A DNA stretch of 37,203 bases from an uncultured Lachnospiraceae bacterium (GTDB lineage Bacteria; Bacillota; Clostridia; Lachnospirales; Lachnospiraceae): positions 1 to 37,203 of the forward strand of contig CANOLA010000025.1 in assembly GCA_947566705.1 (NCBI GenBank), given 5' to 3'. The translations under genes were made by a program, and so were the position numbers. Below, piece after piece: positions 3,601-36,741 of this stretch (within the stretch, counting starts at the first letter, position 1; every line of letters starts with the position of its first letter). Below the pieces are notes generated by a model. It did no database searches. It was not told where the DNA came from and saw only the letters and a program-made list of their open reading frames with translations.

Positions 3601-4438
3601 ACTTTGGGAGAGGCATTACATCCAGATATGATAATAAACTATTCCATTCAACATTTTTGTCGGCATACTCACGCCCTGCCATAACAATCTGGGCGCCCGG
3701 AAGAGACATCCACTTTTGTTTAATCTCTACTCTAAGAAGGTCTGTAAACCAATCTTGTTCAATTTTTTCCTCCCTGACTTCATTCAAACCATCAAGGAAT
3801 ACAACAAGGGATGGTTGTCCATTTTTTTCCCCATTATAACAAGCCTGATACAAACTCTCCCAGAGCATTGAGTTACGATTAAGTATATATTCCCGAATAT
3901 ATTTTTCAATACTACCGTCTTCTGGCTTTAAATCATGCATCGGGATATAAATTGCCAAAATTTTATGTTCTATTAAAGTCCGGGCTGTCTGCTGCATTGC
4001 AATCGTTTTTCCGCATCCGCCCGCACCTACCAGCATATAGTGTAAACGTTCAGAACGCTCCCAGTCTTCCTTTAGACATTGCCAAAGTGGTGTCCTTTTA
4101 TCTGTGCTTACACCCTGAAATGAAGTCTCACACCTCATCCCCTTCAAACCCGGGTATAATTCAGCCGTTATTTTTTCCAAATGATAACCACCACTATTCT
4201 GCAAAATGTTCTCAAGCTGTTTACTTAAAATACCCAGCAACTCTTTTTTGACACGCATATCAGGAATAATTAAAAGTCCTGCCAATACAATCAAAATGAT
4301 AAAAAAAAACAGTTTTATATAACAAGGTACATCTATATCCACAATTTGCAAAGTAGCCCCAATCAATACTGGTAAAATAGTTAACATAGTAGTTCGAAAG
4401 TCTTTATTATTAAACATCTTTTGCATATTAATCTCCAT
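680..4438 (-). CDS. Membrane-anchored NACHT-WD40 STAND NTPase
   Basis: A 1252-residue protein when started at the ATG at 4438; the ATG at 4426 has an even better GGAG spacing of six bases, and the frame is open back to 4495. Residues about 18-32 and 39-58 are hydrophobic and form two likely membrane segments. A NACHT-type P-loop NTPase follows, with Walker A GAGGCGKT at about 138-145 and Walker B VVFLDGLNEV at about 212-221. A pentapeptide-like linker (DFSEQDLRFVSLQNRNL) leads into a long beta-propeller region with repeated WD40-like endings (LRLWNVRTG, LNFWDVES, VYGWDTTN). The protein ends with a short DFRNAHFEDSDL tail. STAND proteins of this type bind a trigger with the C-terminal repeats, oligomerise through NACHT and activate an N-terminal effector. 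Related bacterial NACHT proteins include anti-phage systems. Here the effector would be the membrane segments; that function is inferred. A hairpin (CCACC/GGTGG) overlaps the start region. It stands alone between insertion-sequence remnants. Confidence 0.85.
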   Translation of the reverse strand: MEINMQKMFNNKDFRTTMLTILPVLIGATLQIVDIDVPCYIKLFFFIILIVLAGLLIIPDMRVKKELLGILSKQLENILQNSGGYHLEKITAELYPGLKGMRCETSFQGVSTDKRTPLWQCLKEDWERSERLHYMLVGAGGCGKTIAMQQTARTLIEHKILAIYIPMHDLKPEDGSIEKYIREYILNRNSMLWESLYQACYNGEKNGQPSLVVFLDGLNEVREEKIEQDWFTDLLRVEIKQKWMSLPGAQIVMAGREYADKNVEWNSLLSYLDVMPLPKSQIETYLRTCGIALPDAEDSIWQTISNPLMLVLYVNTAGQKKQFVRMPGIEFISGAEHSSQAAVIWNFLQCQVGKFVCQKGSDPYSYFIAINYAASWVGWNMEQGQLYTLTQKELADLLDKAGENYSIWWLDSPYLKNLQEQLSAVDWQWNTEQIRHILCDETLLLYNGRQEERDNVTDVGLVHFIHQKFRDCYAALYMRSQLSKYGAQKTPEDCHSWCSYAANSEVLDLLDTFVTPAQFNKFWWNQRGVQAHNNSFTMFHLLELYRRKEKKLSKLDFSEQDLRFVSLQNRNLYSNEICFRGAKISRRTLLPQNHDSTLSFLTWLPVSGHKSSDFFLSAGRDLRLWNVRTGESQRQWKSHDSGITCIATSWDGSKFATTSHDKKLLIYLTPQLDEAPEAYEANEELSAVTFSPNDSFLAVGDKTGKVFLCSDTGEFLREIPANEEVPNEKVKMLRFDDSGRYLSALVGKDILLLWRIGGAGNSQLLGMQKAGGKVLDINFERHGTALLYAVEDGTVFRINTNNHNCEPSLQWGQEGILWKAAAFSPDNTVLAAYGKDGLKLLNAFDGSSYKEPLFPEDLRDKQCILISFSIDGQKILCGLDDSSLLVWSAKEPETEAEYKDEPFCIIKAADGELKKFVMLSDTTFLCAFGNGYLTWWNIEQRRCFRCEKLLNVSISQLAISPDKKLLVTAGIDNILNFWDVESLNNKNEPIKLSDTIKDLVFSPKGTVFCCACDDSHVYGWDTTNFSSLFSISLEEKIRILSLVFLSDDFLLGGATNGIIYRWKIPEGTRLEGTEFRMEDIMELAISGDRQFMVSISSDGYLFYWKLKDFCHRSRCKIKMEEAFWNYVAISNDGHHILAGKVDTDGENTLCLLTIRSDEEGIIEKIDKKYIPLPSKAILYALFFSSDSKIAYITAEGGLYIDNVNSLDIEPPLRLIPNILLVDADFRNAHFEDSDLMELVRMSGGIIENAQLY

Positions 4439-4646
4439 TCCGCCACCTTCGGCTGGTGGTACAAATAGTAATAAAAGTGTTCCAACGCTCCACATTGTGC
4501 TGTAAAATGGCTTGTAAGAAGCTACACTTCAAAGCACGAAAGGAGGAGTTGTAATAACTTTCTTCGTTTTAGACAGTATATTAATCAGTGTAAGTTCTGT
4601 CTTTTCAAGCACAAATAAGTGGTACTACGAGTCCGCACACTAAGAA

Positions 4647-6920: not shown

Positions 6921-7805
6921 CTAATACATTATCTTTTTGTCTGCAACCCTCATCAGATGCTCCCCATAAGGTGAATTGTTATACATTTCCGCTGATTCAA
7001 TCAGTTGTTTCTTTGTAATCCATTTCTCCAAGTACGCAATTTCCTCCGGTGCTGAAATCACCATTCCTTGTCGTTTCTGTATAGTCTGAACAAATAGTGC
7101 TGCATCCATTAGGCTGTCCATTGTTCCTGTATCAAGCCATGCAAATCCTCTCCCCAAAATCTGAACCTTCAGACGCTGCCCGTTCAGATACAGCCGGTTC
7201 AAATCCGTAATCTCCAGCTCATTACGGGCAGATGGCATTACCTTTTTAGCCATTGTACTAACACCAGGCGGATAAAAATATAATCCGGTAATACAGTAAT
7301 TTGACTTTGGCTGTTCCGGCTTTTCTTCCACTGAAATAACATTTCTGTTTTGGTCAAACTCCACGATGCCAAATCTTTCTGGATCTGTCACATAATAACC
7401 AAAAATAGTAGCATTTCCCTCTTCTGTATTCTTTACAGCTTCTGCAAGATTTCGTCTGAACCAGCCTCCGTAAAAAATATTATCGCCAAGAATCATAGCA
7501 CAAGCAGCGTCTCCAATAAAATCCTCTGCAATCAGAAATGCCTGGGCAAGACCATCTGGAGATTTCTGTACCGTATAACTTAAGCTTATGCCAAAATGAC
7601 TGCCGTCGCCCAGCAGTTCTTTGAATCTAGGTGTATCCTCCGGAGTGGAAATAATCAGGATTTCACGTACGCCTGCCAGCATCAGGGTGGACAGCGGATA
7701 ATAAATCATCGGTTTGTCATAAACCGGAAGCAACTGTTTTGATGTCACCCGTGTGAGTGGATACAGTCTTGTCCCTGATCCTCCGGCAAGTATAATACCT
7801 TTCAT
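6921..7805 (-). CDS. rfbA: Glucose-1-phosphate thymidylyltransferase (RmlA/RfbA)
   Basis: A 294-residue enzyme of the usual family length. It joins dTTP and glucose-1-phosphate to give dTDP-glucose, the entry to dTDP-6-deoxysugars, in the cytoplasm. The N-terminus carries the nucleotidyltransferase signature [11 protein letters not shown], then [17 protein letters not shown]. Further family motifs are [27 protein letters not shown] and the late [13 protein letters not shown] ribosome site sits eight bases before the ATG. It is directly downstream of a sugar aminotransferase and an acetyltransferase, which suggests that its product feeds a dTDP-amino-dideoxyhexose. The next enzyme needed, dTDP-glucose 4,6-dehydratase (RmlB), is not in the window. 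Confidence 0.95.
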
Positions 7806-7815
7806 TTTAAAAACC

Positions 7816-8913
7816 TCATTTCAGAATAATGTCGCAGATACGATCCACCTCTTCTAGTGAAAGGTCTGCATACAGCGGCAGTGTCAGAACTCTCAGTGCA
7901 AGGTACTGTGCAACCGGCGTTTTTTCCGCCCCGGCTGTCGGATAACTCCTGTAACATTCAAAACTGTTCGTAAGCGGGAAAAAATATTTCCTGGCTGATA
8001 TGCCATGCTGCTGAAGCCGTATATACACCTCATTACGTGTGTATTTGTAATCTTCAAATATAACCGGAAAATAGGCATAATTGAGTTCTGTGTCTTCTTG
8101 TACTGCATTCAGTCTTATCCCCTCCACGCCTTCCAGTCTTTCACGGTATTTTTCCACCACTTTTTTTCTCTTTGCAATCTCGCTGTCAATATGCCTCAGG
8201 TTGCAGATTCCCATTGCTGCACAGAACTCATTCATTTTGGCATTTGCCCCTACTGCTGCAACCTCTTCCTCACCGTGAATACCAAAATTCTTCAGATCCC
8301 AGAGTACTCTCCCAAGTTCTCTGTCCTGAAAGCAGACTGAACCGCCCTCAATAGAATGAAACACTTTGGTTGCATGAAAGCTAAAAATGGAAGCATCTCC
8401 ATATCGTCCAATCCCCTTGCCTTTATAGGTTTCACCAAAGGCATGTGCCGCATCGTAAATAACCTTCAGACCATATTTTCTGGCAATCCTCTCTATTTCT
8501 TCCACATTGCATATATTTCCATACACGTGTACCGGCAGGATTGCGCAGGTACGGTCCGTAACCAGAGATTCAAGTTTCTCCACATCCAACGTGTATGTAA
8601 CCGGGTCTATGTCACAGAATACCGGTACAAGGTTGTTTCTGACTATTGCGTGGGTTGTCGAGGCAAAAGTAAAAGGGGTGGTAATAACCTCCCCCTGTAA
8701 ATTCATTGCCTGCAGCACCATTTCCAGCGCCATGTGCCCGTTGACCAGCAAATCAATATGTTCCACGCCAAGGTATTCTTTTAGCATGTGCCGAAATTCG
8801 TTATGCTTCGGTCCCATATTTGTTAGCCAGTGGCTGTCCCACAGTTCTTTGATTTCGTTTATATATTCATCCATGGGCGGCATGGATGAACGCGTCACCA
8901 GTATTCTGTCCAT
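7816..8913 (-). CDS. vioA: DegT/DnrJ/EryC1 sugar aminotransferase, VioA-like
   Basis: A 365-residue PLP-dependent aminotransferase. Start chosen at the ATG at 8913, preceded by GGAG at good spacing; a GTG at 8922 overlapping the upstream stop is the alternative. The PLP lysine is in [14 protein letters not shown], the aspartate in [10 protein letters not shown], and the N-terminus has WLTNMGPKH. The combination [30 protein letters not shown] and YDAAHAFG is close to what I recall of VioA, which converts dTDP-4-keto-6-deoxyglucose to dTDP-4-amino-4,6-dideoxyglucose (viosamine, Qui4N). WecE (Fuc4N) or FdtB/QdtB (3-amino) specificity is possible. The neighbours rfbA and a hexapeptide acetyltransferase support a dTDP-N-acylamino-dideoxyhexose pathway. 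Confidence 0.85.
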
Positions 8914-8918
8914 ATATC

Positions 8919-9512
8919 TCACTCTCCATGTATATAGGTGCTTTCCTTTTCAATTTCCAGTAATTTTTCTTTTAATTCTAAACAAACATTATTCCTTTCT
9001 TTAATCCTTTTGCACGGAATACCAGCGTATATCCCCCAAGGCTTCAAACTTTCTTTGACCAGGGACATACTGCCAACTGCTGTTCCCTCTCCTATCACCA
9101 CAGAGGGCAGAACTGTACAGCCGCTTCCTAATAAGGCACATTCCTCCAAGATTACCTGTCCCCCGCTAACTCCCCGATACTCGTCTGGTATTACCGGTCC
9201 AATTAAATGTGCACCGGAATAATCATCATTAATGGCAAATATTGTACACCTGACTGAGCAACATGCAAAATCACTGATGACAATTCCTGCTTTCCCTGCA
9301 AACAATGCACTATACGCCGATATATGAGAATGGTTCCCTATGGTAATATTCCCACTAAGAATACAGAAATCATCAATGCGAACATGACTTCCAAGTGAAA
9401 TATTCTCAGCCCCGTAAATGCTGGCTTTCCTACTGACTAATACATTTTCTGTTCCAATTTTCTTAAATCCAATCTTCTTTAATTCTTCAGCAGAATAAAA
9501 ACTGTTAGTCAT
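8919..9512 (-). CDS. Left-handed beta-helix (hexapeptide) acyltransferase, VioB-like
   Basis: A 197-residue protein starting at the ATG at 9512, which overlaps the preceding stop by four bases (ATGA); the frame is open back to 9575. Hexapeptide-type repeats run through the middle (ISLGSHVRIDDFCILSG, ITIGNHSHISAYSALFAG, CALLGSGCTVLPSVVIGEG), with the family ending WGIYAGIPCKRIKER. Because it is coupled to the VioA-like aminotransferase, it probably acetylates or otherwise acylates the new 4-amino group of the dTDP-sugar; that substrate is inferred. A second, frameshifted copy of the same family lies at 12950-13558 beside the WecF-like glycosyltransferase, indicating duplication or replacement within the locus. 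Confidence 0.85.
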   Translation of the reverse strand: MTNSFYSAEELKKIGFKKIGTENVLVSRKASIYGAENISLGSHVRIDDFCILSGNITIGNHSHISAYSALFAGKAGIVISDFACCSVRCTIFAINDDYSGAHLIGPVIPDEYRGVSGGQVILEECALLGSGCTVLPSVVIGEGTAVGSMSLVKESLKPWGIYAGIPCKRIKERNNVCLELKEKLLEIEKESTYIHGE

Positions 9513-9757
9513 TCCTTCTCGTTTTCCTTTTCTAAATAAAATATTACTGGTCTCCACTTCCAGCCTTCTCCCCACCGGAGATACGGTTTTTCAAATAATA
9601 ATATTCTAACCTGGTCAATAACAACTCCCACAACAAATATACCAGCCACACTTAACAATGCATGAAGCAAAAGCAGTTTACTTCCATACATTGCTGTAAC
9701 ATGGAGCAAATTATTCCACAACCACTGTACCAGATTTGGAAACAAAAAATGGGTCAT
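9509..9757 (-). pseudogene. C-terminal fragment of a membrane acyltransferase (family 3-like)
   Basis: Only 82 codons. The residues ALLSVAGIFVVGVVIDQVR followed by ILLFEKPYLR look like the last membrane helix and exit motif (E-K/R-P-x-L/F) of acyltransferase-3 (OafA-type) O-acetyltransferases, which normally have about 350 residues and ten helices. The rest is missing: an in-frame TGA lies five codons before the ATG. Its stop overlaps the start of the acyltransferase gene by four bases, so it may survive only as a translational lead-in. A sequence resembling the end of an ISL3-type element lies just upstream (9797-9815), a possible cause of the truncation. The family call is tentative. Confidence 0.45.
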
Positions 9758-9899
9758 AGCTGTGTCCTGTCACGCTACTGGCAAACCACATTTTTAGCTA
9801 TTTTGACAGAGGAACCCTAAAAATGAGAACCGCCTAATAACAATATTTTTTTCATGTCTTACCACCTTTATTTTCCACATACAGTTTCCTGTATATCTA

Positions 9900-11402
9900 T
9901 TACAAAGAAATTGTATATTTTATATTTATCCCTTCATCCTGTTCTATCAGAATACGGTATTTCCGATTTCTAACCAGTTCCACTGTCTCATCATGATTTG
10001 AGCTCGTCTCACAAATTGTGCTCTGATCTATTGTATCAATAATTGTAAAATAATATATAGCATCAATATTATTAATTCCACAATGAAACGTATACTCTCC
10101 TGTACGGGTAGGAACAAACGTATAAATATTGCACTGATCTTTATACTTCAAAGTCCCTTTTACCGGAAAACTTGTTATCTTCTTTGTTTTCAGCGGAACA
10201 CCAATTTTCCCTTTATACCACTTCTGTAAACCTTCATACTGTTCTACTACAATACGGTATTTTTTACCCTTATCGAGATCAACTGTCGCTCCATGTTCGC
10301 AAGACACACCATCCACAAGAACATCATTTTTTGAATCGTATAAAAAAAATTGAAGTCCGCTATTTACATCACTGACATCAAAATCAAAACGGTAAACACC
10401 CTTTCTTGGTGCCGTATAATAATATGTATCTTCCTGATCCTCATACCTGATTTTTCCTGAAAATGATTTACTTGTAACAGTTACCGGTTCATTGGGAACA
10501 TTTATACTAACCTGATATTTTTCCAGCAGTCCCTCATACTCAGACACTACTATCGTATATATTTCCCCCTTATCAAATTCAACTGTTATCCCTTCATTAG
10601 ATGATACTCCTTCCCCTATCCCTTTATTTTTTGAATCCCAGACATTAACATTAAATGGACAGTTTACATCGCTGACATCAAAATCCAAGCGATAAACACC
10701 TGAAACCGGTGCCTCATAGTAATATGTATCCTCCTGATCCTTATACGTAATGGCACCCTCTATCAGATTGTCTGTAACTGTCTGCTCCTCATTTGGAATC
10801 CCAATATTTACGTGATAATAATCAAGTAGTCCATTACATTCCTGAATTTGTATGTCATAAGCCTGACCCGCTTCCAGGTATACACTGCAACCCGAATCAG
10901 GATATCCATATGTATCAACAATCGCGTTTCCCACAGAATCACTCATATAAAATGAAAAATAATTGTTTACATCACTTATGTCAAAATCAAAATGATACAT
11001 TCCAGTTCTTGAAGCATAATACTGGTAATCGTTCTCCTGATCCTCATATGTGATGGAACCGGAAAAACCATCTTTGTTTTCATATTCCACTGCCTCAATT
11101 TCAGATTCATCATTTACAGTCTCATCATTTATAGTTTCATCATTCTCATCACTCCCAATATCCTCCTCTGATTCCGAAATAAATATGTTATCATTATCCA
11201 TATCTTTCTTTTCTGAATTTTGTTTTGTTACCTGCTCTACCTTTCCATTAAAACTAATTTGGGAAGCGAAGGGCAATAAAATAAATGAAATTACTGTAAT
11301 TACAAATGATATAAGAGTAAACTGTCTTTCATTTTTATTTATCCAAAAATATATACCCATTCCCAAAGAAATAATACCCACTATGACAATTATAAGAAAC
11401 AT
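9900..11402 (-). CDS. Membrane-anchored protein with four PPC-like repeats, function unknown
   Basis: A 500-residue protein with a good GGGAGG site before the ATG. Two hydrophobic segments occupy residues about 1-18 and 28-46 (VIVGIISLGMGIYFWI; LISFVITVISFILLPFAS). A very acidic linker follows to about residue 112. Then come four tandem repeats of about 95-100 residues. Repeats 1-3 each contain YEDQE/YKDQE, a Tyr-rich strand, YRFDFDVSDVN-type, and YxIxVxEYEGL; the fourth is more diverged. The pattern resembles pre-peptidase C-terminal (PPC) beta-sandwich domains found on surface proteins. No catalytic motif is seen. It sits inside the polysaccharide operon on the same strand, so a role in glycan attachment, surface binding or envelope architecture is possible but unproven. 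A decayed GT4 fragment lies immediately upstream. Confidence 0.75.
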   Translation of the reverse strand: MFLIIVIVGIISLGMGIYFWINKNERQFTLISFVITVISFILLPFASQISFNGKVEQVTKQNSEKKDMDNDNIFISESEEDIGSDENDETINDETVNDESEIEAVEYENKDGFSGSITYEDQENDYQYYASRTGMYHFDFDISDVNNYFSFYMSDSVGNAIVDTYGYPDSGCSVYLEAGQAYDIQIQECNGLLDYYHVNIGIPNEEQTVTDNLIEGAITYKDQEDTYYYEAPVSGVYRLDFDVSDVNCPFNVNVWDSKNKGIGEGVSSNEGITVEFDKGEIYTIVVSEYEGLLEKYQVSINVPNEPVTVTSKSFSGKIRYEDQEDTYYYTAPRKGVYRFDFDVSDVNSGLQFFLYDSKNDVLVDGVSCEHGATVDLDKGKKYRIVVEQYEGLQKWYKGKIGVPLKTKKITSFPVKGTLKYKDQCNIYTFVPTRTGEYTFHCGINNIDAIYYFTIIDTIDQSTICETSSNHDETVELVRNRKYRILIEQDEGINIKYTISL

Positions 11403-11446
11403 TTTTCCTTCCTCCCTTCATTTAGTTCTGCCTTTATAATAATTTA

Positions 11447-11800
11447 TATTGATTGATATATCTCCATCATATCTTTTACCCAATGTTCCAATCCATATCT
11501 TTGAATTATATACTTTTTTGAATATTTTTAATATGCTTTATTTTTCTTCATCTTATTGTAATAATTCTAACAGTACCTGCATTAACTTCTTGACATTATT
11601 TGATTCAAATACTCTGCACTCTGGTATATCCAGTCTATATTCTGGTATATTACTTTGGATAATATCGCAGCCACAATATACCGTCTCTATTACAGAAAAA
11701 CAAAAGCCTTCTGAACGAGACGCAGATAAAAATATTTTTGCTGAATTGTAATATACCACTACATCATTACAAAATAGAGGCCAATTATGCCAGCATTACC
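11447..11800 (-). pseudogene. GT4 glycosyltransferase, C-terminal remnant
   Basis: The minus strand reads NWPLFCNDVVVYYNSAKIFL, then SASRSEGFCFSVIETVYCGC and PEYRLDIPECRVFES. This closely parallels the C-terminal half of the intact GT4 protein encoded at 15966-17060 (SASRSEGFCLAVLEATYCGC; LDIPECKTFES). A stop after LLELLQ and then a frameshift break it; the last part continues in another frame as IIQRYGLEHWVKDMMEIYQS and ends near 11447. The N-terminal domain is absent here, although a matching N-terminus (MNILQIVNIVPDNPGDL) appears 2.1 kb upstream at 13960. It is a dead paralogue. Confidence 0.8.
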
Positions 11801-11852
11801 TTACAGTATTACAATATCAGATAAGGATTACTAAAAACCCGCTCGTGTGCTA

Positions 11853-12938
11853 TCACGATACCCGTCTGCTCTCCAAATAATCCAGTAATGCATGCCAGCT
11901 TTCACAAGCTGAATGATAGTCATGCATGGTCATGCTCAGTTTTTTGTCCACCTGATATACCGTGGTTTGTTTCAATTCGTCATATTCTATATACCTCATT
12001 TCTTCTGTTGTCCTATACGGAATCCCTTCCGCATCAAGTCCCTGCCTTATCACCCCAGAGCCATTGATATAGAGCTGTATTCCAAAATATAATAACATTT
12101 GGAGATTGCCCAGTGCATATGAACCTGTCCCATCCAAAACGGCAATATCCATGGAACTGACTAGTTCTGCATACTGCTCGTATGACAATTTTTTTTCAAC
12201 AAATACCGCCTTCCCTCCCAGATATTTTTTTGCAAATTGTTTTACCTCGTCAATATATTCGAAATCCCCATATGAGAGTATAAAATATACCTTTATATTC
12301 TGGTCTACAAACCGCTTTAACAATCTGATAACTTCCAAATGATTATCATTCTGAAACCCAGAATGACCTACCATAATATTTATATTTCCGCCGCCTGACG
12401 CTTTTCCCCTCCGCCTGATTTTTTCAAGAATTTCATACTCATTTGTAGAGTATGGCATCGTAAACATTATGACATCCCCATACATTTTTGAGAGATTAAT
12501 TGAATCCACAACATTTGCCACCCCTACTGCAGCAAGCTTATGAACATATCTGCCATAGTAAAGGTTCAGTACTTTTTTTATAATGTTCTTTATTATCTCC
12601 CCGTCTTTAATCCCATATCCTGCATCAGAACCCCATGTACGCCAGACCACCTTTCCAAGATACCTTTTCTTTACCTTACACAGGGAACTCACCCCCTGAA
12701 TACCATGCACAATAATCCAGTCCGTACTGTCAGCATATTTATTAATCAATTGCACATCTTCTGTATCTAGTACCACATTTCCATATTTCTTTAATACGTC
12801 ATATTCCTCCGGCGAACGTGAAATAAACAAATGTTCTTCTGGCAAGAATCCACTTTCCTTGTCATTAAGTATTTTTACAACACTATCGTCAAATCCTATA
12901 CTTGAAAAATTAAATATATGTATATATTTGTATTTCAT
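11853..12938 (-). CDS. WecF-like glycosyltransferase (GT56, 4-acetamido-dideoxyhexosyl transferase)
   Basis: A 361-residue protein when started at the ATG at 12938, preceded by AAAGGAG; the frame opens at 12953, but that start lies within the ribosome site. The N-terminus (YKYIHIFNFSS; LPEEHLFIS) and the VHGIQG, VWRTWGSDAGYG segment resemble WecF, the dTDP-Fuc4NAc:lipid-linked-oligosaccharide transferase of enterobacterial common antigen. Also similar is the late LGNLQMLLYFGIQLYING. The family call is by pattern memory. It fits the context well, because the same operon encodes RmlA, a 4-aminotransferase and an acyltransferase that would make a dTDP-4-acylamino-dideoxyhexose donor. It is flanked by pseudogenes on both sides. 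Confidence 0.65.
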   Translation of the reverse strand: MKYKYIHIFNFSSIGFDDSVVKILNDKESGFLPEEHLFISRSPEEYDVLKKYGNVVLDTEDVQLINKYADSTDWIIVHGIQGVSSLCKVKKRYLGKVVWRTWGSDAGYGIKDGEIIKNIIKKVLNLYYGRYVHKLAAVGVANVVDSINLSKMYGDVIMFTMPYSTNEYEILEKIRRRGKASGGGNINIMVGHSGFQNDNHLEVIRLLKRFVDQNIKVYFILSYGDFEYIDEVKQFAKKYLGGKAVFVEKKLSYEQYAELVSSMDIAVLDGTGSYALGNLQMLLYFGIQLYINGSGVIRQGLDAEGIPYRTTEEMRYIEYDELKQTTVYQVDKKLSMTMHDYHSACESWHALLDYLESRRVS

Positions 12939-12949
12939 CTTTCTCCTTT

Positions 12950-13558
12950 TCATATGTTCAAGATATGTATTATATATACTATAAGACTATCTATCAAAAC
13001 CACTTGTATTTTCCAGCATTTTCTGTTCCATTTCCAGTACCCCCTATTTCTATCCCGTATCTTCTTAAACGGAATACCCACATTGATACTCCATGTCTCC
13101 GAATCATGGTTGTTAAATGAAAACGCGCCAAAAGAACTCCCTTCTCCAATGCTCACCCTGGCAGAACAACGCTTGTAGAACCTATCAACACATATTTCCT
13201 GATATAAACTGGAGCAGAATATACCTTTTTATACTGTTCCGGAACCATGGGATTAGATATGTTTTCTTCAGAATAATCATCTGCAAAACTATATATACAT
13301 ATCCTTGAAGATGTGCCTGAAAAATAATCTATATATCCCTTCATTTTCTCCATACAATGCCGAAAATGCCGCGATATGAATAAAGTTCTTTAAAACAATC
13401 TTTCCACTGAGGATACAGAAATCATCCATCCGCACATGATTACCTATCTCCATATTCCCAGTCCCATAAATACTGCATTTACGACTAATCAGTACATTTT
13501 TCCCGTAAGACTTTAACCCGATTTCTTTCAGTTCATCTTTCGAATAAAAATTTGACAC
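12950..13558 (-). pseudogene. Frameshifted hexapeptide acyltransferase
   Basis: Three consecutive frames together rebuild a protein collinear with the intact acyltransferase at 8919-9512. The first, from a GTG at 13558, reads SIYGTGNMEIGNHVRMDDFC. After a shift near 13340 it continues as FADDYSEENISNPMVPEQYK and ends LIGSTSVVLPG. After a second shift near 13155 it continues as SIGEGSSFGAFSFNNHD and INVGIPFKKIRDRN. Both breaks look like single-base changes (the second like loss of one G in a GGG run), so inactivation is recent. The intact copy elsewhere may have replaced it. A sequencing error in two places cannot be excluded from the sequence alone. Confidence 0.8.
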
Positions 13559-13796
13559 TCCAAATTCATCTCCTGCAGTTTAAGTGTGCTCTCGGAAACT
13601 CCCAAGCCTTTATTTTACTGGCTTTTTTCCTTTCCAAAATTTCACTCTCACCTCTATTTTTCTGTAACATTTACAATTTTTTCTATCAGACGAAATTTGT
13701 TTTTTCTTCGAAACAATTCAGCCTTTCGGCTGAGCGAAATGAAAAAGTTACCCACCGTCATTCTGCGAAAACCGTAAACCTCTGAAATTTGCTTTA

Positions 13797-13880
13797 AATC
13801 AATTTTCCTATTAACATTCAATTTATCCAGTGACTGGCAGCATATTCCGCCCTCCCCATATTTTAGTGAAGTCCCCCTCC
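13797..13880. repeat. Direct repeat, copy 1 (FkbM segment)
   Basis: About 84 bp that match 15291-15374 at the DNA level with only scattered substitutions (shared blocks include TTTCCTATTAA, CAATTTATCCAGTG and CCCTCCCCATATTTTA). This copy lies in the chimeric remnant. The other lies inside the intact FkbM gene. Confidence 0.8.
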
Positions 13881-13960
13881 ACTTTTTCCACTTCCCAAAT
13901 CCCCAATATAAGATCACCTGGATTATCGGGTACTATATTTACAATTTGTAATATATTCAT
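13797..13960 (-). pseudogene. Chimeric remnant: GT4 N-terminus joined to FkbM fragment
   Basis: A well-placed GGGGATG site precedes an ATG at 13960 that reads MNILQIVNIVPDNPGDLILG, like the start of the intact GT4 gene at 17060 (MNILQIVNVSSVYPGNL). After about 22 codons the sequence changes, in another frame, to GTSLKYGEGGICCQSLDKLN, which matches the interior of the FkbM methyltransferase at 15079-15969. The GT4 reading frame then ends at a TAA. This is a recombination junction between two gene families that are neighbours elsewhere in the locus. Whatever follows (13654-13796) contains a GAAA-loop hairpin (TCAGCC/GGCTGA) and no recognisable protein. Confidence 0.75.
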
Positions 13961-13981
13961 TTCACATCCCCTTTGATTTTT

Positions 13982-15046
13982 TCATTTTTCCTGTTCTGGT
14001 TTTCCCATTCTTTTTATTTTGCCCATCAACTTCCGGAACATGATTTTGCCGTCTCCGTAATACAGTCTTTTGCATATACCAACAATTCTACGGTATTTTG
14101 CAACCAAGGGATGATGCCATGCTGTTTCACGTTTCATTCTTTTTTCATATGTCAAATCTGGAAAAATATATTCCGGATGCTGGATTGTGTTCTCCAGCTC
14201 ATATGTCTTCATATTAAAAAACTGTGCATCTCCTTTTGCCATTTTTTTCAAATTATCCACCGCATGTGTTGAACCGGAAGTAGCTCCATAACAGCTAATC
14301 ATGTTTTTCTTCGGAACAATATATAGCTGATTCTGCGCGTACATATTTAAAACAAGAAAAAACTCCCAGCCCGGTACATGACCACCTATCAGTTTATTAT
14401 TTGCATATCCTCTCATTGATTTGCAAAAGAAGGTATCTTTCTTTGCAATCTTACATACCTCATTTATAACATAAGAATCATTCTGATAATTGAGATTGAA
14501 GGATTCAAATGTTCTCTTCCACGTTGCGATACCCCAAATGGAACCCACGTGCGAAAAAAAATAATCCTTTGTTGGAGAATCATATATTCCCAGATGGTTC
14601 ATTCCACAAATAGCGGTTATCCGCAAATCATCTTTATATTTCTCCAGCATTTCTGCACAAAACCTGAAAAAACTGACGGAAGGAATAATATCGTCCTCCA
14701 TGAATATACAGCGGTCAACATGCTGCCATACGTATTCACTGGCAATTCTTCCCATCCCATACAGACCATTATTTTCATCTGCATAAATAAGATGTACCGT
14801 ACATTCCCAGTCTATACCCTTCTCCACAAGTTCCCTGTTCTGCCTGATTAGTTGCCATTCTTTTTCATTTCTTCCCCCGTCTGACTGAATAAACAGAATA
14901 CTTGGCCTTGCTTTCTTAAGAACTTCCAGTTGCACTTTCTGACAGTCAGGCCTTGCCCATATATTTGTTTGCACCGGCACATCAACCAAAAATGGTCTTA
15001 CACCCTTATTTAGCTTTCTAGTATTATATACTTTAATATCTGTCAT
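13982..15046 (-). CDS. GT-A fold glycosyltransferase (HlpA-like)
   Basis: A 354-residue protein with a GAGGG site before its ATG. The N-terminal half is a nucleotide-sugar binding fold: VPVQTNIWARPDC, then the acidic metal-binding motif CIFMEDDIIPSVSFF, typical of GT-A enzymes that act on an incoming NDP-sugar. The aromatic stretch GSIWGIATWKRTFESFN is also characteristic of the proteins annotated as hemolytic-protein HlpA-like nucleotide-diphospho-sugar transferases. No membrane segment is seen. It should add one sugar of the repeat unit at the cytoplasmic face; the sugar is unknown. It lies 33 bases after the FkbM gene and is followed by the pseudogene zone. Confidence 0.7.
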   Translation of the reverse strand: MTDIKVYNTRKLNKGVRPFLVDVPVQTNIWARPDCQKVQLEVLKKARPSILFIQSDGGRNEKEWQLIRQNRELVEKGIDWECTVHLIYADENNGLYGMGRIASEYVWQHVDRCIFMEDDIIPSVSFFRFCAEMLEKYKDDLRITAICGMNHLGIYDSPTKDYFFSHVGSIWGIATWKRTFESFNLNYQNDSYVINEVCKIAKKDTFFCKSMRGYANNKLIGGHVPGWEFFLVLNMYAQNQLYIVPKKNMISCYGATSGSTHAVDNLKKMAKGDAQFFNMKTYELENTIQHPEYIFPDLTYEKRMKRETAWHHPLVAKYRRIVGICKRLYYGDGKIMFRKLMGKIKRMGKPEQEK

Positions 15047-15078
15047 ATATCCCTCAAAATAAATATGAAGCTTTTCTG

Positions 15079-15969
15079 TTATTCTGCATTGCTTTTACCT
15101 TCTGGAACATACAAATAATCGTCATTCCACTTTTTCTTATTTACATATCCCATTTTCTTCAAAGTTGCGTCCACAGCATTTTTATTTTCCTCAAAAATTT
15201 CTATATAAATCTGTGGTTTGTCCCTTTTTATCAATTCAACTCCACCAAGGAGTACTTCATTTTCAAAGCCTTCCACGTCTATCTTAATAAAATCAATTTT
15301 CCTATTAATATCCAATTTATCCAGTGGCTGGCAGTGTATTCCACCCTCCCCATATTTTAATGATGTACCCCCCCAATTTTCTTCATCGAAGTTTTTTATC
15401 CCAACAGTTGTTCTTTCTCTTCCAAGGGCATAATTATTTAGCAAAACATTATCCAGTCCGTTTATTTGGCAGTTTTTACTTAAAATTTCAAAAGTTTTCG
15501 GCATTGGTTCAAATGTATACACATAATTCGCTTTACAAACTTTAGTAAAATATAGCGTATGATTTCCTATGTTTGCACCAATATCCAGAATGTTCATCCC
15601 ACTTTTTACAATCCCACTATCTTTAAGCATTTCCAGCTGATTAATATCAAAAAAAGATTGGGACTTAAAAATAGTCCTTTGGATCAAATCTCCTTTCATT
15701 CTTTTTCTTTCAACTTTTACAAATGGCAGATAAAATTTTATATCTGAATATCCGTCTTTTAATGCCATGATGTATCCCCTGCCAGTCAGCTGCCTGTATC
15801 GTTCTTCATATTCCTTCCATTCATTCAATATGTTTCTAAAATTTTTAATAATCCATCCTGACATCCAGATTCCTCTTTTAACTGTCCGTTGAATCTTTCT
15901 ATCCTGATATGTCTTCTTCATATATTCTAATACTTCCGGATATGATAATAATTCTATTTTTGAAATCAT
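15079..15969 (-). CDS. FkbM-family methyltransferase
   Basis: A 296-residue protein whose ATG overlaps the stop of the upstream GT4 gene by four bases. After an N-terminal region of about 120 residues, the SAM-binding motif I is NILDIGANIGNHTLYF, followed by YTFEPMPKTFEIL and the FkbM hallmark IDFIKIDVEGFENEVLLGG. FkbM enzymes O-methylate sugars or polyketides; here the likely target is a hydroxyl of the glycan repeat unit. An 84-bp piece of this gene is repeated in the chimeric remnant at 13.8 kb. Confidence 0.88.
   Translation of the reverse strand: MISKIELLSYPEVLEYMKKTYQDRKIQRTVKRGIWMSGWIIKNFRNILNEWKEYEERYRQLTGRGYIMALKDGYSDIKFYLPFVKVERKRMKGDLIQRTIFKSQSFFDINQLEMLKDSGIVKSGMNILDIGANIGNHTLYFTKVCKANYVYTFEPMPKTFEILSKNCQINGLDNVLLNNYALGRERTTVGIKNFDEENWGGTSLKYGEGGIHCQPLDKLDINRKIDFIKIDVEGFENEVLLGGVELIKRDKPQIYIEIFEENKNAVDATLKKMGYVNKKKWNDDYLYVPEGKSNAE
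15291..15374. repeat. Direct repeat, copy 2 (inside FkbM gene)
   Basis: Partner of 13797-13880, in the same orientation and about 1.5 kb away. Recombination between the two would delete the GT-A gene. Confidence 0.8.
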
Positions 15970-25653: not shown

Positions 25654-25674
25654 AAAAAGACACCTTGCGGTGTC
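25654..25674 (-). terminator. Intrinsic terminator between yoeB and the PglD-like gene
   Basis: Perfect 6-bp stem GACACC/GGTGTC with a GCAA loop (25659-25674), followed on the minus strand by TTTTT (25654-25658). It would end toxin-antitoxin transcripts and also stop the long polysaccharide transcript unless polymerase is antiterminated. Confidence 0.85.
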
Positions 25675-25702
25675 CTTCAAATGCAAATCCAGTGTTTATT
25701 TT

Positions 25703-25963
25703 TTAATCATCATAATGCCCCCTGCAGGCTATAATCCAGAGGTTTCCATTTTCATCCATATCATAAACAAGCCTGTTCTCATGGTCAATCCGTCTGCTCC
25801 ACGCTTTCCGGTACTTAAGCGGCTCCGGCTTACCAGTTCCTTTTGACAATCCGTTCCGCTCTATGTCCCTGACCAGTTCATTAATCTTTCTGAGGGTCTT
25901 TTTATCCTGCATCTGCCAGTACAGGTAGTCGTCCCATGCCCGGTCCGACCATAATTTATTCAT
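25703..25963 (-). CDS. yoeB: Toxin YoeB (ribosome-dependent mRNA endonuclease)
   Basis: An 86-residue protein starting at the ATG at 25963, which overlaps the antitoxin stop; an upstream ATG five codons earlier is less likely. The sequence NKLWSDRAWDDYLYWQMQDK, then RDIERNGLSKGTGKPEPLKY, WSRRIDHENRLVYD and the C-terminal CRGHYDD is classic YoeB, with the Glu, Arg and His used for RNA cleavage in place. YoeB cuts mRNA in the ribosomal A site and is held inactive by YefM. The pair is embedded in the polysaccharide operon, between the initiating transferase and the acetyltransferase genes. Confidence 0.95.
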   Translation of the reverse strand: MNKLWSDRAWDDYLYWQMQDKKTLRKINELVRDIERNGLSKGTGKPEPLKYRKAWSRRIDHENRLVYDMDENGNLWIIACRGHYDD

Positions 25964-26213
25964 CCTCTTCCACCTCAATCAGTTCATGCTGCTGCCCGTT
26001 ACCGGAAGACAGCTGGGCAATTCCCCTGTCAAGCATTGCAAGATATTCCTCATTCTGAGCGGCCTTTATCATCCGGTTGTACTTCTCCAGACTTAAAATA
26101 ACGACATTCTTTTCATCCTTACGTGTAACAATGACTGTCTCATTATTTTCTGTTGCCTCATCACAGTATGTTTTCAGGTTGTTTCTGATTGTGGAATAAT
26201 TTACAGCAAGCAT
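25956..26213 (-). CDS. yefM: Antitoxin YefM (Phd/YefM family)
   Basis: An 85-residue protein with a strong GGAGGG ribosome site. The N-terminal DNA-binding half is AVNYSTIRNNLKTYCDEATE, TVIVTRKDEKNVVILSLEKY, and the C-terminal half is acidic and should wrap the toxin. It represses its own promoter with YoeB. The gene overlaps yoeB by eight bases, as usual for this module. Its promoter and operator lie just upstream at 26245-26294. Confidence 0.95.
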   Translation of the reverse strand: MLAVNYSTIRNNLKTYCDEATENNETVIVTRKDEKNVVILSLEKYNRMIKAAQNEEYLAMLDRGIAQLSSGNGQQHELIEVEEDE

Positions 26214-26244
26214 AATGCCGCCCTCCTTTTTCTGTGCAGATAAC

Positions 26245-26294
26245 TGTTCAATTTATTGTACAATTATTATATGAAATTGTTCAGGTTATGTCAA
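26245..26294 (-). promoter_or_regulatory. Consensus promoter and operator of yefM-yoeB
   Basis: On the minus strand TTGACA (26289-26294) and TATAAT (26266-26271) are separated by exactly 17 bases, a perfect sigma-A promoter. Just downstream is the palindrome ATTGTACAAT (26255-26264), whose TGTACA core is the known YefM operator core. TGTTCA half-site-like sequences occur at 26245-26250 and 26278-26283. The arrangement predicts autorepression by YefM-YoeB. Confidence 0.85.
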
Positions 26295-29056: not shown

Positions 29057-29109
29057 AAAAAAGGGCAGGCTTCGCCACCCGCGCCTTTACACGCGGTTTT
29101 TGCCTGTCC
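29057..29109 (-). terminator. Leader terminator after the NusG paralogues
   Basis: On the minus strand an outer stem GGACAGGC/GCCTGCCC (29102-29109 with 29063-29070; one mismatch) encloses an inner stem CCGCG/CGCGG, and TTTTTT follows (29057-29062). It lies between the second NusG paralogue and the first polysaccharide gene, which is the position of an attenuator that a LoaP/UpxY-type protein would overcome. A small CGCT/AGCG hairpin precedes it. Confidence 0.8.
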
Positions 29110-29164
29110 TTATGTCCGCCGTCTTCCTGCACTGCGCTCTAAGCGTCAACTGCATTCTGAAGGT

Positions 29165-29674
29165 TTAATTTTCTATTCTCTTAACAACGCCAAGCCCCAG
29201 CTGGACCTCCACAAGATGCCCCAGAAGCGGAACCTCAATTGTCACCAGTCTGTGGTGCCTGTCGAGCCGTTTTACTTTTCCTTCGTATCCCTGCATGGCA
29301 CCGTCTATGACAACCAGCCGCTCACCCTCAAGATATCCTTCCGAATATCCCGCAATATGGTTTTCCCCGCCGAGCTGTCTTAAAAATTCTTCTTCCTCAG
29401 GCCAGACGGGAACTACATCCTCTCCGGTCTTTAAAACCTTTGTCATGGCTTTTATCTCATGCAGCCGGATACGGAAATCATCAATATCTTTTGTGTCAAT
29501 AAATACATAACCAGGAAAAAGCAGATAACGTTTCAGTTTCCATTCACCCCGGAAACGGCATTTTTTCTCGCCGTACATGGTGAACACTTCCTCGTTTTCC
29601 TGCATAATCCTGCCACGGCACTGCCTGACAATATCTGTTTCCTGTCCGGTTTTCACCTGCAGAACATACCACAT
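29165..29674 (-). CDS. NusG-paralogue antiterminator (LoaP/UpxY-like), second copy
   Basis: A 169-residue protein with a GGAAAGGA ribosome site. The NGN domain begins MWYVLQVKTGQETDIVRQCR and has the hallmark KRYLLFPGYVFIDTKD. The C-terminal KOW domain contains RLVVIDGAMQGYEGKVKRLD. Housekeeping NusG is similar in size, but location at the head of a polysaccharide operon, next to a second paralogue, marks a specialised NusG. LoaP in Firmicutes and UpxY in Bacteroides bind RNA polymerase at a leader sequence and let it pass terminators in long biosynthetic operons. The gene lies 20 bases after the first paralogue and directly before a terminator. Confidence 0.9.
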   Translation of the reverse strand: MWYVLQVKTGQETDIVRQCRGRIMQENEEVFTMYGEKKCRFRGEWKLKRYLLFPGYVFIDTKDIDDFRIRLHEIKAMTKVLKTGEDVVPVWPEEEEFLRQLGGENHIAGYSEGYLEGERLVVIDGAMQGYEGKVKRLDRHHRLVTIEVPLLGHLVEVQLGLGVVKRIEN

Positions 29675-29694: not shown

Positions 29695-30189
29695 CTAAAA
29701 CCGGATTCCCAGACGCAGGGTTTCTCTTCTGCCGGAAAAATTCATATCTATTTCTGCAAATCTGTTGTGCAGATTCACTTTTTTTACCCTCTCAGACACC
29801 TTTGCAAGCGGTCCGGACAAGTATGTGACTTTTTTGTCTTCTCCGATACTGACATCCGAAAGACCTACTGTACCGCTGCTGTCTGTAATAAGCTCCAAAA
29901 GTGCAGCTTCATCCGAATCCATCACACTGACCTTCCGGCTGTCTGAAAACAGCAGGCTTTTGGAGGTCTCCTCCAGCTTTTTGTATATCATTTCCGGTTC
30001 ATCTGTCTCAATGAATACATAACCTGGGAGAAACCTTTCATTTACGGTGTGCCAGACTCCGCCGTTTTTGTACAGGCGGTTTCTTGTCAGGGAAAAACAC
30101 CTTGCAGGAATATTTCCCTGCAGGAGATGTGATACGAATGCTTTTGTTTTCTGCTCGTTTTTGTCACCTGCGTAAATCACACACCACAT
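29695..30189 (-). CDS. NusG-paralogue antiterminator (LoaP/UpxY-like), first copy
   Basis: A 164-residue protein with CAGGAG six bases before the ATG. The NGN domain starts MWCVIYAGDKNEQKTKAFVS and has ERFLPGYVFIETDEPEMIYK. The C-terminal part VTYLSGPLAKVSERVKKVNL followed by HNRFAEIDMNF is a KOW-like domain. It is only distantly similar to the second paralogue, so the pair is not a recent duplication and may have distinct roles, for example antitermination and its modulation. Its start codon is only about 16 bases downstream of the left recombination site, so it is the first gene read from the invertible promoter. Confidence 0.88.
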   Translation of the reverse strand: MWCVIYAGDKNEQKTKAFVSHLLQGNIPARCFSLTRNRLYKNGGVWHTVNERFLPGYVFIETDEPEMIYKKLEETSKSLLFSDSRKVSVMDSDEAALLELITDSSGTVGLSDVSIGEDKKVTYLSGPLAKVSERVKKVNLHNRFAEIDMNFSGRRETLRLGIRF

Positions 30190-30205
30190 AGAAAACTCCT
30201 GCGCT

Positions 30206-30241
30206 CAGGTGGGGATTAATTCTTGAATTTATCCCCATCTG
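30206..30241. repeat. Left recombination site of the putative invertible promoter
   Basis: A 36-bp dyad: half-sites CAGGTGGGGATTAATTC and GAATTTATCCCCATCTG around a central TT (30223-30224). The halves are reverse complements apart from two positions. A dyad with a two-base non-palindromic centre is what small serine recombinases use (2-bp staggered cut). It matches the right site in inverted orientation. In RNA the same sequence would fold into a long hairpin in the leader of the first NusG gene. Confidence 0.75.
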
Positions 30242-30331
30242 CAATGAAATCACTGTATATCACAGTTTTATGCAAATTTTACAAAAAATAACCCGGAACC
30301 AGATAGTAACCTTTTGATTCCGTCCTAAAAC

Positions 30332-30360
30332 AAAATAACATATGGAGATATTTTTTGCAA
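30332..30360 (-). promoter_or_regulatory. Candidate leftward promoter inside the invertible segment
   Basis: Minus strand TTGCAA (30355-30360), 17-base spacer, TATTTT (30332-30337). In the orientation present it points to the NusG genes (ON). Another -10-like TACTAT lies further left with a poor -35. The segment is AT-rich and carries no gene. Confidence 0.45.
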
Positions 30361-30367
30361 TACCGTG

Positions 30368-30400
30368 TGGGGATTTTTTCAAGAATTTATCCTCACCTGA
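30368..30400. repeat. Right recombination site of the putative invertible promoter
   Basis: The reverse complement of this 33-bp stretch matches 30205-30237 at 28 of 33 positions, including TCAGGTG, AATTCTTGA and ATCCCCA. The central dinucleotide is AA (30381-30382) on the plus strand, that is TT in opposite polarity to the left site, which predicts inversion and not deletion. The recombinase stop codon (30393-30395) lies in the outer half-site, outside the crossover point, so inversion would not alter the protein. Its own dyad symmetry is weaker than in the left site. Confidence 0.75.
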
Positions 30401-31325
30401 TCCATTTCATGGCAGCACATCCTGCGCCTGAATCCATTTGCCAAAGCGTACTGCTGTCTTCTTTTTCATGTAAAACTGTTTCATTCCTTATTTTATCCCC
30501 GTTTTCATGGCTGCGTCCGCCAGTGGTAACGTTTACCTTCACGGCTCTGTCCTTCTTTGGCACAGTTTCTCCTGTACGGCAGTCCATGCCGCCCTCCGTT
30601 TCCCCCAAGTTTTCTGTCTGAACAGACGGTGCGTATACTGTTTGCTCTTTCGTTTTCTCCAGCCATTTTTTAAATGTTTTCCGGTCCACGCCAAGCTGTC
30701 CTGCTGCGCTTCTCTGTGAAATTTTTCCTTCTATATATTCTTTTTTTATTATTTCAAAATTTTCCGGAACTGCCATTTCCTTTCTGCCGGGGCGCACTCC
30801 CCGTTCGCGCCTTGCAACGAGAAGCCCCTCCTGCAGTCGCTGGTAAATGGACTGCCGGTCAAAATCCGCAATCATGGAAAATATGGCAAAAATAATATCT
30901 GAAAGCGCCTGCCCCAGGGGACCGAGTTCTTTTCCCGCATTTAAAACAGGCGTATCAATTACCACAATACTGACATGTTTTTCCTGTGTGATAATGCGCC
31001 ACTGCTCCTTGACCTCTTTCGTGTTCCTGCCCAGCCGGTCAATATTTTTTATGACAAGAAGGTCATTTTCTTTCAGGTTTTCCAGCAGCTTCCGGTAACC
31101 CGGACGGTCAAAATCTTTTCCTGACTGTTTGTCAAAAAACATATTGGTTTCCTTTACTCCGAGCTCTTTCATGGCGTCCGTCTGCCTGTCGTGCTTCTGT
31201 GCCGCCGTGCTCACCCTGAGATAGCCGTACACGGTCCCCCTGCATTCTGCAATCATCTCTGCACTGTTTGCAAAAATCCCTGAAATATCCGTAAATTCTT
31301 CCATTCCTATCATCTTTTGTACCAT
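30393..31325 (-). CDS. Small serine recombinase (resolvase/invertase), probable promoter invertase
   Basis: 310 residues from the first ATG at 31325; ribosome sites are weak, and later ATGs (codons 5 and 8) are possible starts. The resolvase domain is complete: YGYLRVSTAAQKHDRQTD with catalytic Ser39, the conserved DRLGRN at about 96-101, and the long E-helix region (SDIIFAIFSMIADFDRQSIY). A DNA-binding helix-turn-helix lies at about 201-223 (KISQRSAAGQLGVDRKTFKK). About 85 extra hydrophilic residues follow, longer than usual for Hin/Pin-type enzymes. The gene ends inside the right recombination site and is separated by only about 200 bases from the NusG gene. This is the layout of a dedicated invertase. 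It is preceded by a terminator and three dyads. Confidence 0.9.
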   Translation of the reverse strand: MVQKMIGMEEFTDISGIFANSAEMIAECRGTVYGYLRVSTAAQKHDRQTDAMKELGVKETNMFFDKQSGKDFDRPGYRKLLENLKENDLLVIKNIDRLGRNTKEVKEQWRIITQEKHVSIVVIDTPVLNAGKELGPLGQALSDIIFAIFSMIADFDRQSIYQRLQEGLLVARRERGVRPGRKEMAVPENFEIIKKEYIEGKISQRSAAGQLGVDRKTFKKWLEKTKEQTVYAPSVQTENLGETEGGMDCRTGETVPKKDRAVKVNVTTGGRSHENGDKIRNETVLHEKEDSSTLWQMDSGAGCAAMKWIR

Positions 31326-35426: not shown

Positions 35427-36629
35427 CTATCCTTCACATACCTTTTCCATCTCTTCACCCAAATCTTCAAACTGCAAATGGGTATATGTATTGAGCGTTA
35501 CACCAATATCCGAATGTCCCATAATGTATTGTAGCTTCTTAGGATTGACACCTGACTTTGCCATATTGCTGCAAAATGTATGCCTTGCTACATGAGGCGT
35601 AATCACTGGAAGCTGTTTCTTGTAAATCTTATTGTAGTTCTCCCGGATATGCTGAAAGTATTTCTCCCAATGCAGGGCAACCATAGGCATATTATTTTTG
35701 TCCAGATAAAGAAATCCGCATTTACCATCAATCATTGGTTCTATCTTAGGCTTCTTACGATTCTCCAGAATATGTTTAAAGCATTCCTTTACTTCATCGG
35801 ACATAGGCACATATCTCACGCCCTTTTCTGTCTTAGGCGTTTCTATGACATATTCCATATCCCTTTTTCTCTGTAGCTGATGATCAATCCTGATTTTATT
35901 ATCCACAAAATCAATATCATCTCTTGTTAGTCCACAAAATTCAGAAATACGCAGTCCTGTTTTGAATAAGATAAAAATGCCCTCATAATATTTTGAAAAG
36001 TGCTTATCAGCTTTGACAAAGTTTAAAAATGCTCTTTCCTGTTCTCTGGTGATTGCTTCTCTTGTCACACTGTCATTCACTACAACAGTGGCAAGCTGAA
36101 ACTCAAACGGATTCTTACGGATCAAATCATCCTCTACCGCCATCTGAAAAGCTGGTCTGACTACTCCCCTTATGGTATGGATAGAACTATATCCCCTACC
36201 ATCTTTTTCCTGCAGCTTTATCAGCCATTCCTTGGCATCTGATATCCTGACAGTATCAATCCGTTTCCTTCCAAAGTCCTCTTTCTTTATGATATTGATC
36301 ACAAAGTTATAATTGGCTTTGGTATTATGCTTTACACCACGCTTCTGTAAAACATACTTTTCTACTAATTCAAGTACCGTAGTGTTCCCACCATTCGGCA
36401 TAATATAATCATCTAAAGCCTTTTGAATCTGCTTTTCTTTTTCTCTCAGGGAAATATCCTTACGTCTGCCTTTTGGCACTGCATCTGATTCAGTCAGTTT
36501 CCAACTGTATACAGATTTTCTTTCTCCTGACTTATCAAGATATCTGTATTTATATCTCCCGTCTTTTTCCTGGCTCTCTCCTGTCCATAGTTTTCGACCT
36601 TTATGATCCCGTCTAACTACGTCTGACAA
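35427..36629 (-). CDS. int: Tn916-type tyrosine integrase
   Basis: 400 residues when started at the TTG at 36629, which follows AAAGGAG at ideal spacing; this gives the length of Tn916 Int (405). The open frame back to 36689 has no ribosome site. The N-terminal arm-binding domain (DHKGRKLWTGESQEKDGRYK) parallels Tn916. Catalytic residues are present: Arg in LLKTGLRISEFCGL-type (FKTGLRISEFCG), His-x-x-Arg in TPHVARHTFCSN, His in YIMGHSDIGVTL and the nucleophile Tyr in NTYTHLQF. It excises and integrates the element with Xis. Transcription runs towards the element end, so the rest of the element lies to the right, outside the window. Confidence 0.95.
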   Translation of the reverse strand: MSDVVRRDHKGRKLWTGESQEKDGRYKYRYLDKSGERKSVYSWKLTESDAVPKGRRKDISLREKEKQIQKALDDYIMPNGGNTTVLELVEKYVLQKRGVKHNTKANYNFVINIIKKEDFGRKRIDTVRISDAKEWLIKLQEKDGRGYSSIHTIRGVVRPAFQMAVEDDLIRKNPFEFQLATVVVNDSVTREAITREQERAFLNFVKADKHFSKYYEGIFILFKTGLRISEFCGLTRDDIDFVDNKIRIDHQLQRKRDMEYVIETPKTEKGVRYVPMSDEVKECFKHILENRKKPKIEPMIDGKCGFLYLDKNNMPMVALHWEKYFQHIRENYNKIYKKQLPVITPHVARHTFCSNMAKSGVNPKKLQYIMGHSDIGVTLNTYTHLQFEDLGEEMEKVCEG

Positions 36630-36741
36630 TATTCTCTCGCTCCTTTCATATAACAAGAGCCATCTGTATGATACTTCCCATAATACCACACATCTGGCTC
36701 AAAATCCATTATTCATTCTTCTATTATCATCAATACAAATA

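Follow-up and report, generated by a model that had tools for sequence, protein, structure and literature searches.

The window analysed here, a 37,203-bp stretch of DNA from an uncultured Lachnospiraceae bacterium, carries approximately 25 kb of co-directional glycan genes on the reverse strand (5146–29132), recognized by their Pfam and NCBIfam matches. These include genes for an aminotransferase, a sugar-phosphate transferase, glycosyltransferases, an EpsG-type polymerase, a UDP-GlcNAc 2-epimerase, and an ABC transporter, the family searches having covered the cluster apart from the genes at 6921–15969. By inference, the glycan genes form one operon. Within it lies a YefM/YoeB-type toxin–antitoxin pair (25655–26294, reverse strand) with its own 12/12 consensus promoter (26294–26266) and a terminator-like site behind it (25678–25655). 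Upstream of the glycan genes, on the same strand, are two NusG-related genes, loaP2 (29165–29674) and loaP1 (29695–30189), then a short segment between two inverted sites, and then a gene for a serine recombinase of 310 amino acids (30393–31325). A Tn916-type integrase gene (35427–36689, reverse strand) is located close to the contig's right end, 4 kb from the recombinase. The window yielded no tRNA with ARAGORN. The glycan locus is possibly adjacent to an integrative element.

A preliminary description of this DNA had reported a 33-bp inverted pair with 28 identical positions. We confirmed this pair at 30205–30237 and 30368–30400, with arms of 33 nt that are complementary at 28/33 positions (85%) and separated by 130 nt. 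It was the sole pair reported by a seeded inverted-repeat scan of the window (seeds of 9 bases, 18 or more matching bases, no more than 600 bp apart). The dyad architecture expected of a serine-recombinase crossover site held for the left arm but was poor in the right one. The left site (30206–30241) is a 36-bp dyad around a TT centre at 30223–30224, symmetric at 15/17 positions, and no other even-centred 17+2+17 dyad in the window scored as high, the runner-up score being 12, at eight positions. The right site (30364–30399), an inverted 28/33 match to the left site with an AA centre at 30381–30382, is symmetric at 11/17 positions. As this score is common, occurring at 38 positions in the window (the right site and 37 others), the outstanding dyad is confined to the left arm.

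From centre to centre, the two sites enclose 158 bp (30224–30381). Since one centre reads TT and the other AA, recombination between them is predicted to produce inversion and not deletion, as the preliminary description had argued from their polarity. The neighbouring genes also lie where it had placed them. The recombinase gene ends within the right site, with its stop codon (30393–30395) inside the right arm on the outer side of the crossover point, so that inversion would leave the recombinase protein unaltered. The first NusG paralogue begins just past the left site, the start of loaP1 at 30189 being 15 bases from the left arm. The AGGAG of loaP1 lies outside the segment; with this translation signal beyond the left site, the switch would act on transcription only. 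In the source genome, which is 84% complete, no further copies of the sites were found at three or fewer mismatches, and a role as a master switch was rejected on this ground. A site-pattern search of the same genome detected no separate contig with the opposite orientation.

The opposite orientation was found in another genome, an 'uncultured Eubacterium sp.' MAG (locus L007), whose recombinase is 81% identical to that of the window over residues 1–222. L007 was the only relative recovered by a scan of genome contigs with the recombinase, and the viral contigs yielded none. Genome searches for close orthologues, covering overlapping sets of 62 genus-level, 397 family-level, 394 relative, and 391 class-level genomes (with at most five candidates per genome scored in the family, relative, and class sets), returned only genome G196 below E 1e-70 besides the window. 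In both the window and L007, the order of recombinase, loaP2 (71% identical in L007), and aminotransferase is co-linear and the intervening segment measures 158 bp between centres, yet this segment aligns in the opposite direction. The whole-segment alignment scored 140 when flipped versus 105.5 in the same direction. For the inner 122 bp, from which the sites had been removed, the flipped alignment scored 21 (local) and 24.5 (global), whereas the maxima among 2000 dinucleotide shuffles were 17 and 14 (0/2000 in each case); the same-direction score was equalled by 1919/2000 (local) and 239/2000 (global) shuffles, which is chance level. Because the flipped alignment exceeded every shuffle, the window and L007 carry the same element in two orientations. 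The comparison among related genomes that the preliminary description had suggested thus revealed a segment reversed between conserved, co-linear flanks. We read the orientation as ON in the window and OFF in L007. With a single reversed orthologue, located in another genome, one old inversion looks the same as frequent switching.

The preliminary description had also placed a leftward promoter in the segment, and this claim was sustained by conservation but not by score. The candidate, TTGCAA-17-TATTTT with a TG before the -10 (30360–30332, reverse strand), falls within the block GTATTGCAA...TATTTTGTTTTA, which is conserved, in reversed orientation, in L007. Against a sigma-A matrix, it gave p = 0.23 toward LoaP and the best match in the opposite direction gave p = 0.45, each p being derived from 300 mononucleotide shuffles; the best L007 match toward LoaP was poor (p = 0.78). 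A simple consensus promoter scan did not list the candidate, and its one site in the segment, TTTACA-18-GATAGT (30278–30307, forward strand), faces the recombinase. With an unremarkable matrix score and a silent consensus scan, the argument for the promoter comes mainly from conservation in L007. As a matrix match alone it is a weak candidate, and it is the weak point in reading the segment as an invertible promoter. The segment also contains a weak hairpin followed by a short T-run (30252–30269, forward strand; -3.9 kcal/mol here and -5.9 in L007), which the terminator scan of the window did not list. When the segment is reversed, this hairpin would sit directly behind the recombinase gene, an arrangement that is suggestive only. 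Another terminator-like hairpin, with a T-rich tail, lies within the start of loaP1 (30103–30122, reverse strand).

The recombinase combines a Resolvase domain (PF00239, 1.6e-26) with a helix-turn-helix. It aligns with the Tn3 and gamma-delta resolvase chains, keeping the YxRVST and DRLGR stretches. The catalytic residues Ser39, Arg37, Arg97, and Arg100 do not vary among the three switch recombinases, those of the window, L007, and a further locus, L051. These three proteins and a homologue from genome G059 are extended at the N terminus by about 30 residues, an extension missing from the proteins of L058, L061, and L067; the L052 sequence was cut by the coordinates used in this comparison. 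The length of the C-terminal tail is very variable, the protein having 310 amino acids here, 399 in L007 (L007:5001–6200), and 255 in L051 (L051:4776–5543). Against the Mpi family model (NCBIfam NF009949), the recombinase scored 53.5 bits, far under the 272-bit cut-off. We infer that this adjacent recombinase does the flipping.

A similar layout was observed in L051, which lies in genome G196 and represents the same place as L022. Here a recombinase 67% identical to that of the window is followed by an inverted pair (26/27), a NusG/LoaP-like gene, and an aminotransferase-like gene. The NusG/LoaP-like protein scored 31.5 bits with Pfam NusG, over the cut-off, and 85.4 with the LoaP model, under its cut-off of 125. 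The L051/L022 segment contains a near-consensus promoter match, TTGACA-15-GATAAT with TG, aimed at the LoaP-like gene (p = 0.017). The TTCTTGAA core and the inverted polarity are common to the window, L007, and L051, while the outer bases of L051 differ. Downstream of the switch, both L007 and L051 have a LoaP-like gene and then an aminotransferase-like gene, and the inverted pair lies between recombinase and LoaP-like gene at all three loci.

Of 51 related recombinase loci, 17 carried an inverted pair no more than 900 bp downstream; among 255 mononucleotide shuffles, one did. As L007 and L069 are one place, 17/51 becomes 16/50. The spans were 106–207 bp in 16 of the 17 rows and 560 bp in the remaining one, and the site sequences differed between loci. 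No downstream pair was found in the other 34 loci, in at least five of which (L006, L012, L025, L030, and L045) the sequence stops no more than 200 bp beyond the gene. Promoters were scored in 16 segments; the better match faced the downstream gene in some and the recombinase in others. The G059 homologue, from the same genus, has the N-terminal extension, and the seeded scan reported no inverted pair beside it. The source genome itself encodes a second recombinase on contig C13 (L005/L052) with its own inverted pair (28/29, 184-bp span); this pair differs from that of the window, so C13 represents a separate switch. A 129-amino-acid ORF behind the C13 recombinase had no NCBIfam match. A third recombinase match in this genome lies on contig C96 and is truncated where that contig stops.

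The two genes beyond the left site had been described as NusG paralogues. They are indeed NusG-related, but are better described as LoaP-like. LoaP2 matched the LoaP antiterminator model NF033641 with 141.7 bits, over the cut-off of 125, whereas LoaP1 scored 95.5 bits, under it, had no Pfam match, and is a divergent NusG/LoaP-like protein. The third match in the genome adjoins ribosomal-protein-type genes and an L10 leader, and we read it as the housekeeping nusG. Directly after loaP2, the terminator scan reported a terminator-like RNA with a U-run (29063–29155, reverse strand), whose GGCGAAGC core makes it a candidate LoaP target. A similar sequence is present in L007, and one similar in outline in L051. 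The RNA matched RAGATH-28 (RF03052) with 26.4 bits, under the gathering threshold of 45.3; under stricter filters the source genome gave no RAGATH-28 match, and neither L007 nor L051 gave one up to E 1. Across 200 genomes, RAGATH-28 had two matches. The one over the cut-off (L082) lies directly behind a LoaP-like gene, and the other (L083) has no LoaP-like gene by BLAST. We rejected RAGATH-28 as a general LoaP marker on these results, and such sparse matches indicate that the Rfam family covers a subset at best. RAGATH-28 may be one form of a leader RNA with this core beside LoaP genes. A GGCG[A/T]AGC core was found near loaP (up to 250 bp upstream or 200 bp downstream) in 17 of 29 LoaP loci (L084–L112), 14 times upstream and 3 times downstream; the background was 18 occurrences in 534,414 strand-bases of L051–L068, one LoaP locus being among them.

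We also searched for inverted pairs at 49 LoaP loci chosen without regard to recombinase, namely 47 wide loci, a set from which the places G279:C50 and G090:C85 were left out, together with L109 and L160 from the RAGATH search. An upstream pair (within 2.5 kb, contig permitting) was present in five (L128, L130, L133, L146, and L151), compared with 2 of 156 mononucleotide shuffles over all 52 loci. The pairs of L133 (18/21) and L146 (about 1.9 kb from loaP) may be chance. Those of L128 (25/26), L130 (30/32), and L151 (21/21) lie close to loaP and are convincing, and promoters facing LoaP were recognized by eye in L128 (TTGACT-17-TATAAT) and L130 (TTGACA-17-TAATAT). When the fetched stretches of L128, L130, and L151 were searched by BLAST, using three serine recombinases and one Tn916-type integrase as queries, there was no match, so that another recombinase would be needed there. 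In 30 narrow LoaP loci with 1.5-kb flanks, a pair occurred only in L099 and L102, the places of L128 and L133, respectively. With an upstream pair in only 5 of 49 loci, we rejected the combination of LoaP and switch as a general rule.

We consider it very likely that the 158-bp segment is an invertible promoter which, together with the recombinase, forms a switch, followed by LoaP antitermination of the 25-kb glycan operon. The adjacent serine recombinase would bind the two 36-bp sites, cut at the TT/AA centres, and flip the segment. In the ON orientation of this assembly, the promoter, presumed to be functional, would read leftward into loaP1-loaP2 and the polysaccharide operon; in the OFF orientation, as in L007, it would point into the recombinase gene at the 3' end, leaving the operon without this promoter. 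In a second stage, LoaP produced from the ON promoter would probably load at the structured RNA just past loaP2 and carry RNA polymerase through the operon, past the terminators within it. Because a relative carries the same stretch reversed, random ON/OFF switching of the coat is probable, which would make glycan expression phase-variable. The toxin–antitoxin pair may remain expressed when the switch is OFF, and passage through its terminator would need LoaP.

Other explanations of these data appear less satisfactory. That the inversion is real and acts mainly on the recombinase, through an antisense promoter, or through a terminator, with the operon driven from elsewhere, is unlikely, and this account overlaps with our preferred one. 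In its favour, the OFF promoter would be aimed at the recombinase gene, the consensus scan lists a segment site that already faces the recombinase here, and the hairpin with its T-run is stronger in L007. The 12/12 promoter within the operon could also give expression in OFF, but it precedes the toxin–antitoxin pair, which has its own terminator-like site, and loaP1 begins only 15 bases from the left site.

It is decidedly improbable that the pair is a relic of a mobile element's recombinase sites and the L007 reversal one past event without a regulatory role. Related small serine recombinases do occur on two plasmid and three phage records (42–48% identity), a Tn916-type integrase lies 4 kb off, and just one reversal was observed. 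However, the sites have an inverted arrangement and matching polarity, the segment is free of cargo genes and shares a conserved block with L007, the layout recurs at 17/51 recombinase loci with differing sites, and in three loci the pair falls between recombinase and LoaP-like gene. The strong dyad of the left arm and the helix-turn-helix of the recombinase could also be explained if the arms were operators, bound by a dimeric repressor or an autoregulating recombinase, and not crossover sites. We regard this as highly implausible, as it leaves the reversed L007 segment and the kept TT/AA asymmetry unexplained.

Phase-variable capsules are best known from Bacteroides. In Bacteroides fragilis, Mpi controls invertible capsule promoters that occur with UpxY antiterminators; UpxY is a NusG paralogue, and Mpi acts on many distant promoters. 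The locus described here resembles this system in having a probable invertible promoter, a serine recombinase, and a NusG-paralogue antiterminator at the head of a whole capsule operon. It differs in that the recombinase is local and adjacent and not a master invertase, with one site pair in the genome (three or fewer mismatches, 84% complete), and in that LoaP takes the place of UpxY. The preliminary description had called the system analogous to Mpi but built from different parts. The arrangement does differ, but "different parts" was too strong, since Mpi is also a serine recombinase according to its NCBIfam name and UpxY is also a NusG paralogue. Like Hin/Gin-type invertases and Tn3/gamma-delta resolvases, the recombinase has a Resolvase domain, a catalytic serine, and dyad sites with a two-base centre; unlike them, it is extended by about 30 residues at the N terminus and has a long C-terminal tail. 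Clostridioides difficile, also a member of the Clostridia, likewise has recombinase-flipped regulatory segments, which control other genes than here; the recombinase of these switches, RecV, is of the tyrosine type and acts on several loci.

According to a study of Bacillus velezensis (PMC12691694), which reports a UNCG hairpin, LoaP there depends on a hairpin in the leader and counteracts NusA at a terminator. Our locus shares the LoaP-type protein and has a candidate structured leader RNA and terminator, but differs in that LoaP would serve a glycan operon behind a probable invertible promoter. In Eggerthella lenta, a preprint describes megabase capsule inversions at a 16-bp repeat that move capsule genes relative to loaP (PMC13174815). 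There, too, inversion is tied to capsule genes and loaP, but on a megabase scale and without an adjacent recombinase, whereas here a 158-bp segment lies beside a serine recombinase. A gut-community inverton profile puts the median for Firmicutes_A at three invertons per genome and connects a Clostridia group with tyrosine-type recombinases (PMC11892184), and a phase-variable Akkermansia capsule has been reported (PMC13343947). We found no description of a system like the present one in the literature on invertible promoters, LoaP/NusG, and Firmicutes capsules, as represented in partial texts and mostly without subscription journals, which is weak evidence.

We lean towards the broader view that Lachnospiraceae have repeatedly evolved glycan operons with a two-stage lock, convergent with Mpi/UpxY of Bacteroides. 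In such operons, an invertible promoter, turned by a dedicated local serine invertase or by other recombinases, would drive LoaP. LoaP would load at its own leader RNA, and passage of the internal terminators would be reserved for transcripts that begin at the switch. If true, a compact cis-encoded switch before LoaP operons would add a large Gram-positive family to the bacteria with capsule phase variation, which affects encounters with phages and the immune system, and would link LoaP antitermination to phase variation. The locus would also provide an easily testable unit, made up of a single recombinase, two 36-bp sites, and a promoter segment of 158 bp.

Two further observations concern the glycan cluster. 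Short ORFs at 13289–13917 (reverse strand) repeat, by eye, parts of the genes at 8919–9575 and 15079–15969 and are possible remnants of gene shuffling in the cluster. At the end of the cluster, a gene at 680–4495 (reverse strand) encodes a protein of 1271 amino acids whose C-terminal half contains WD40 repeats, preceded by a part that looks NTPase-like by eye.
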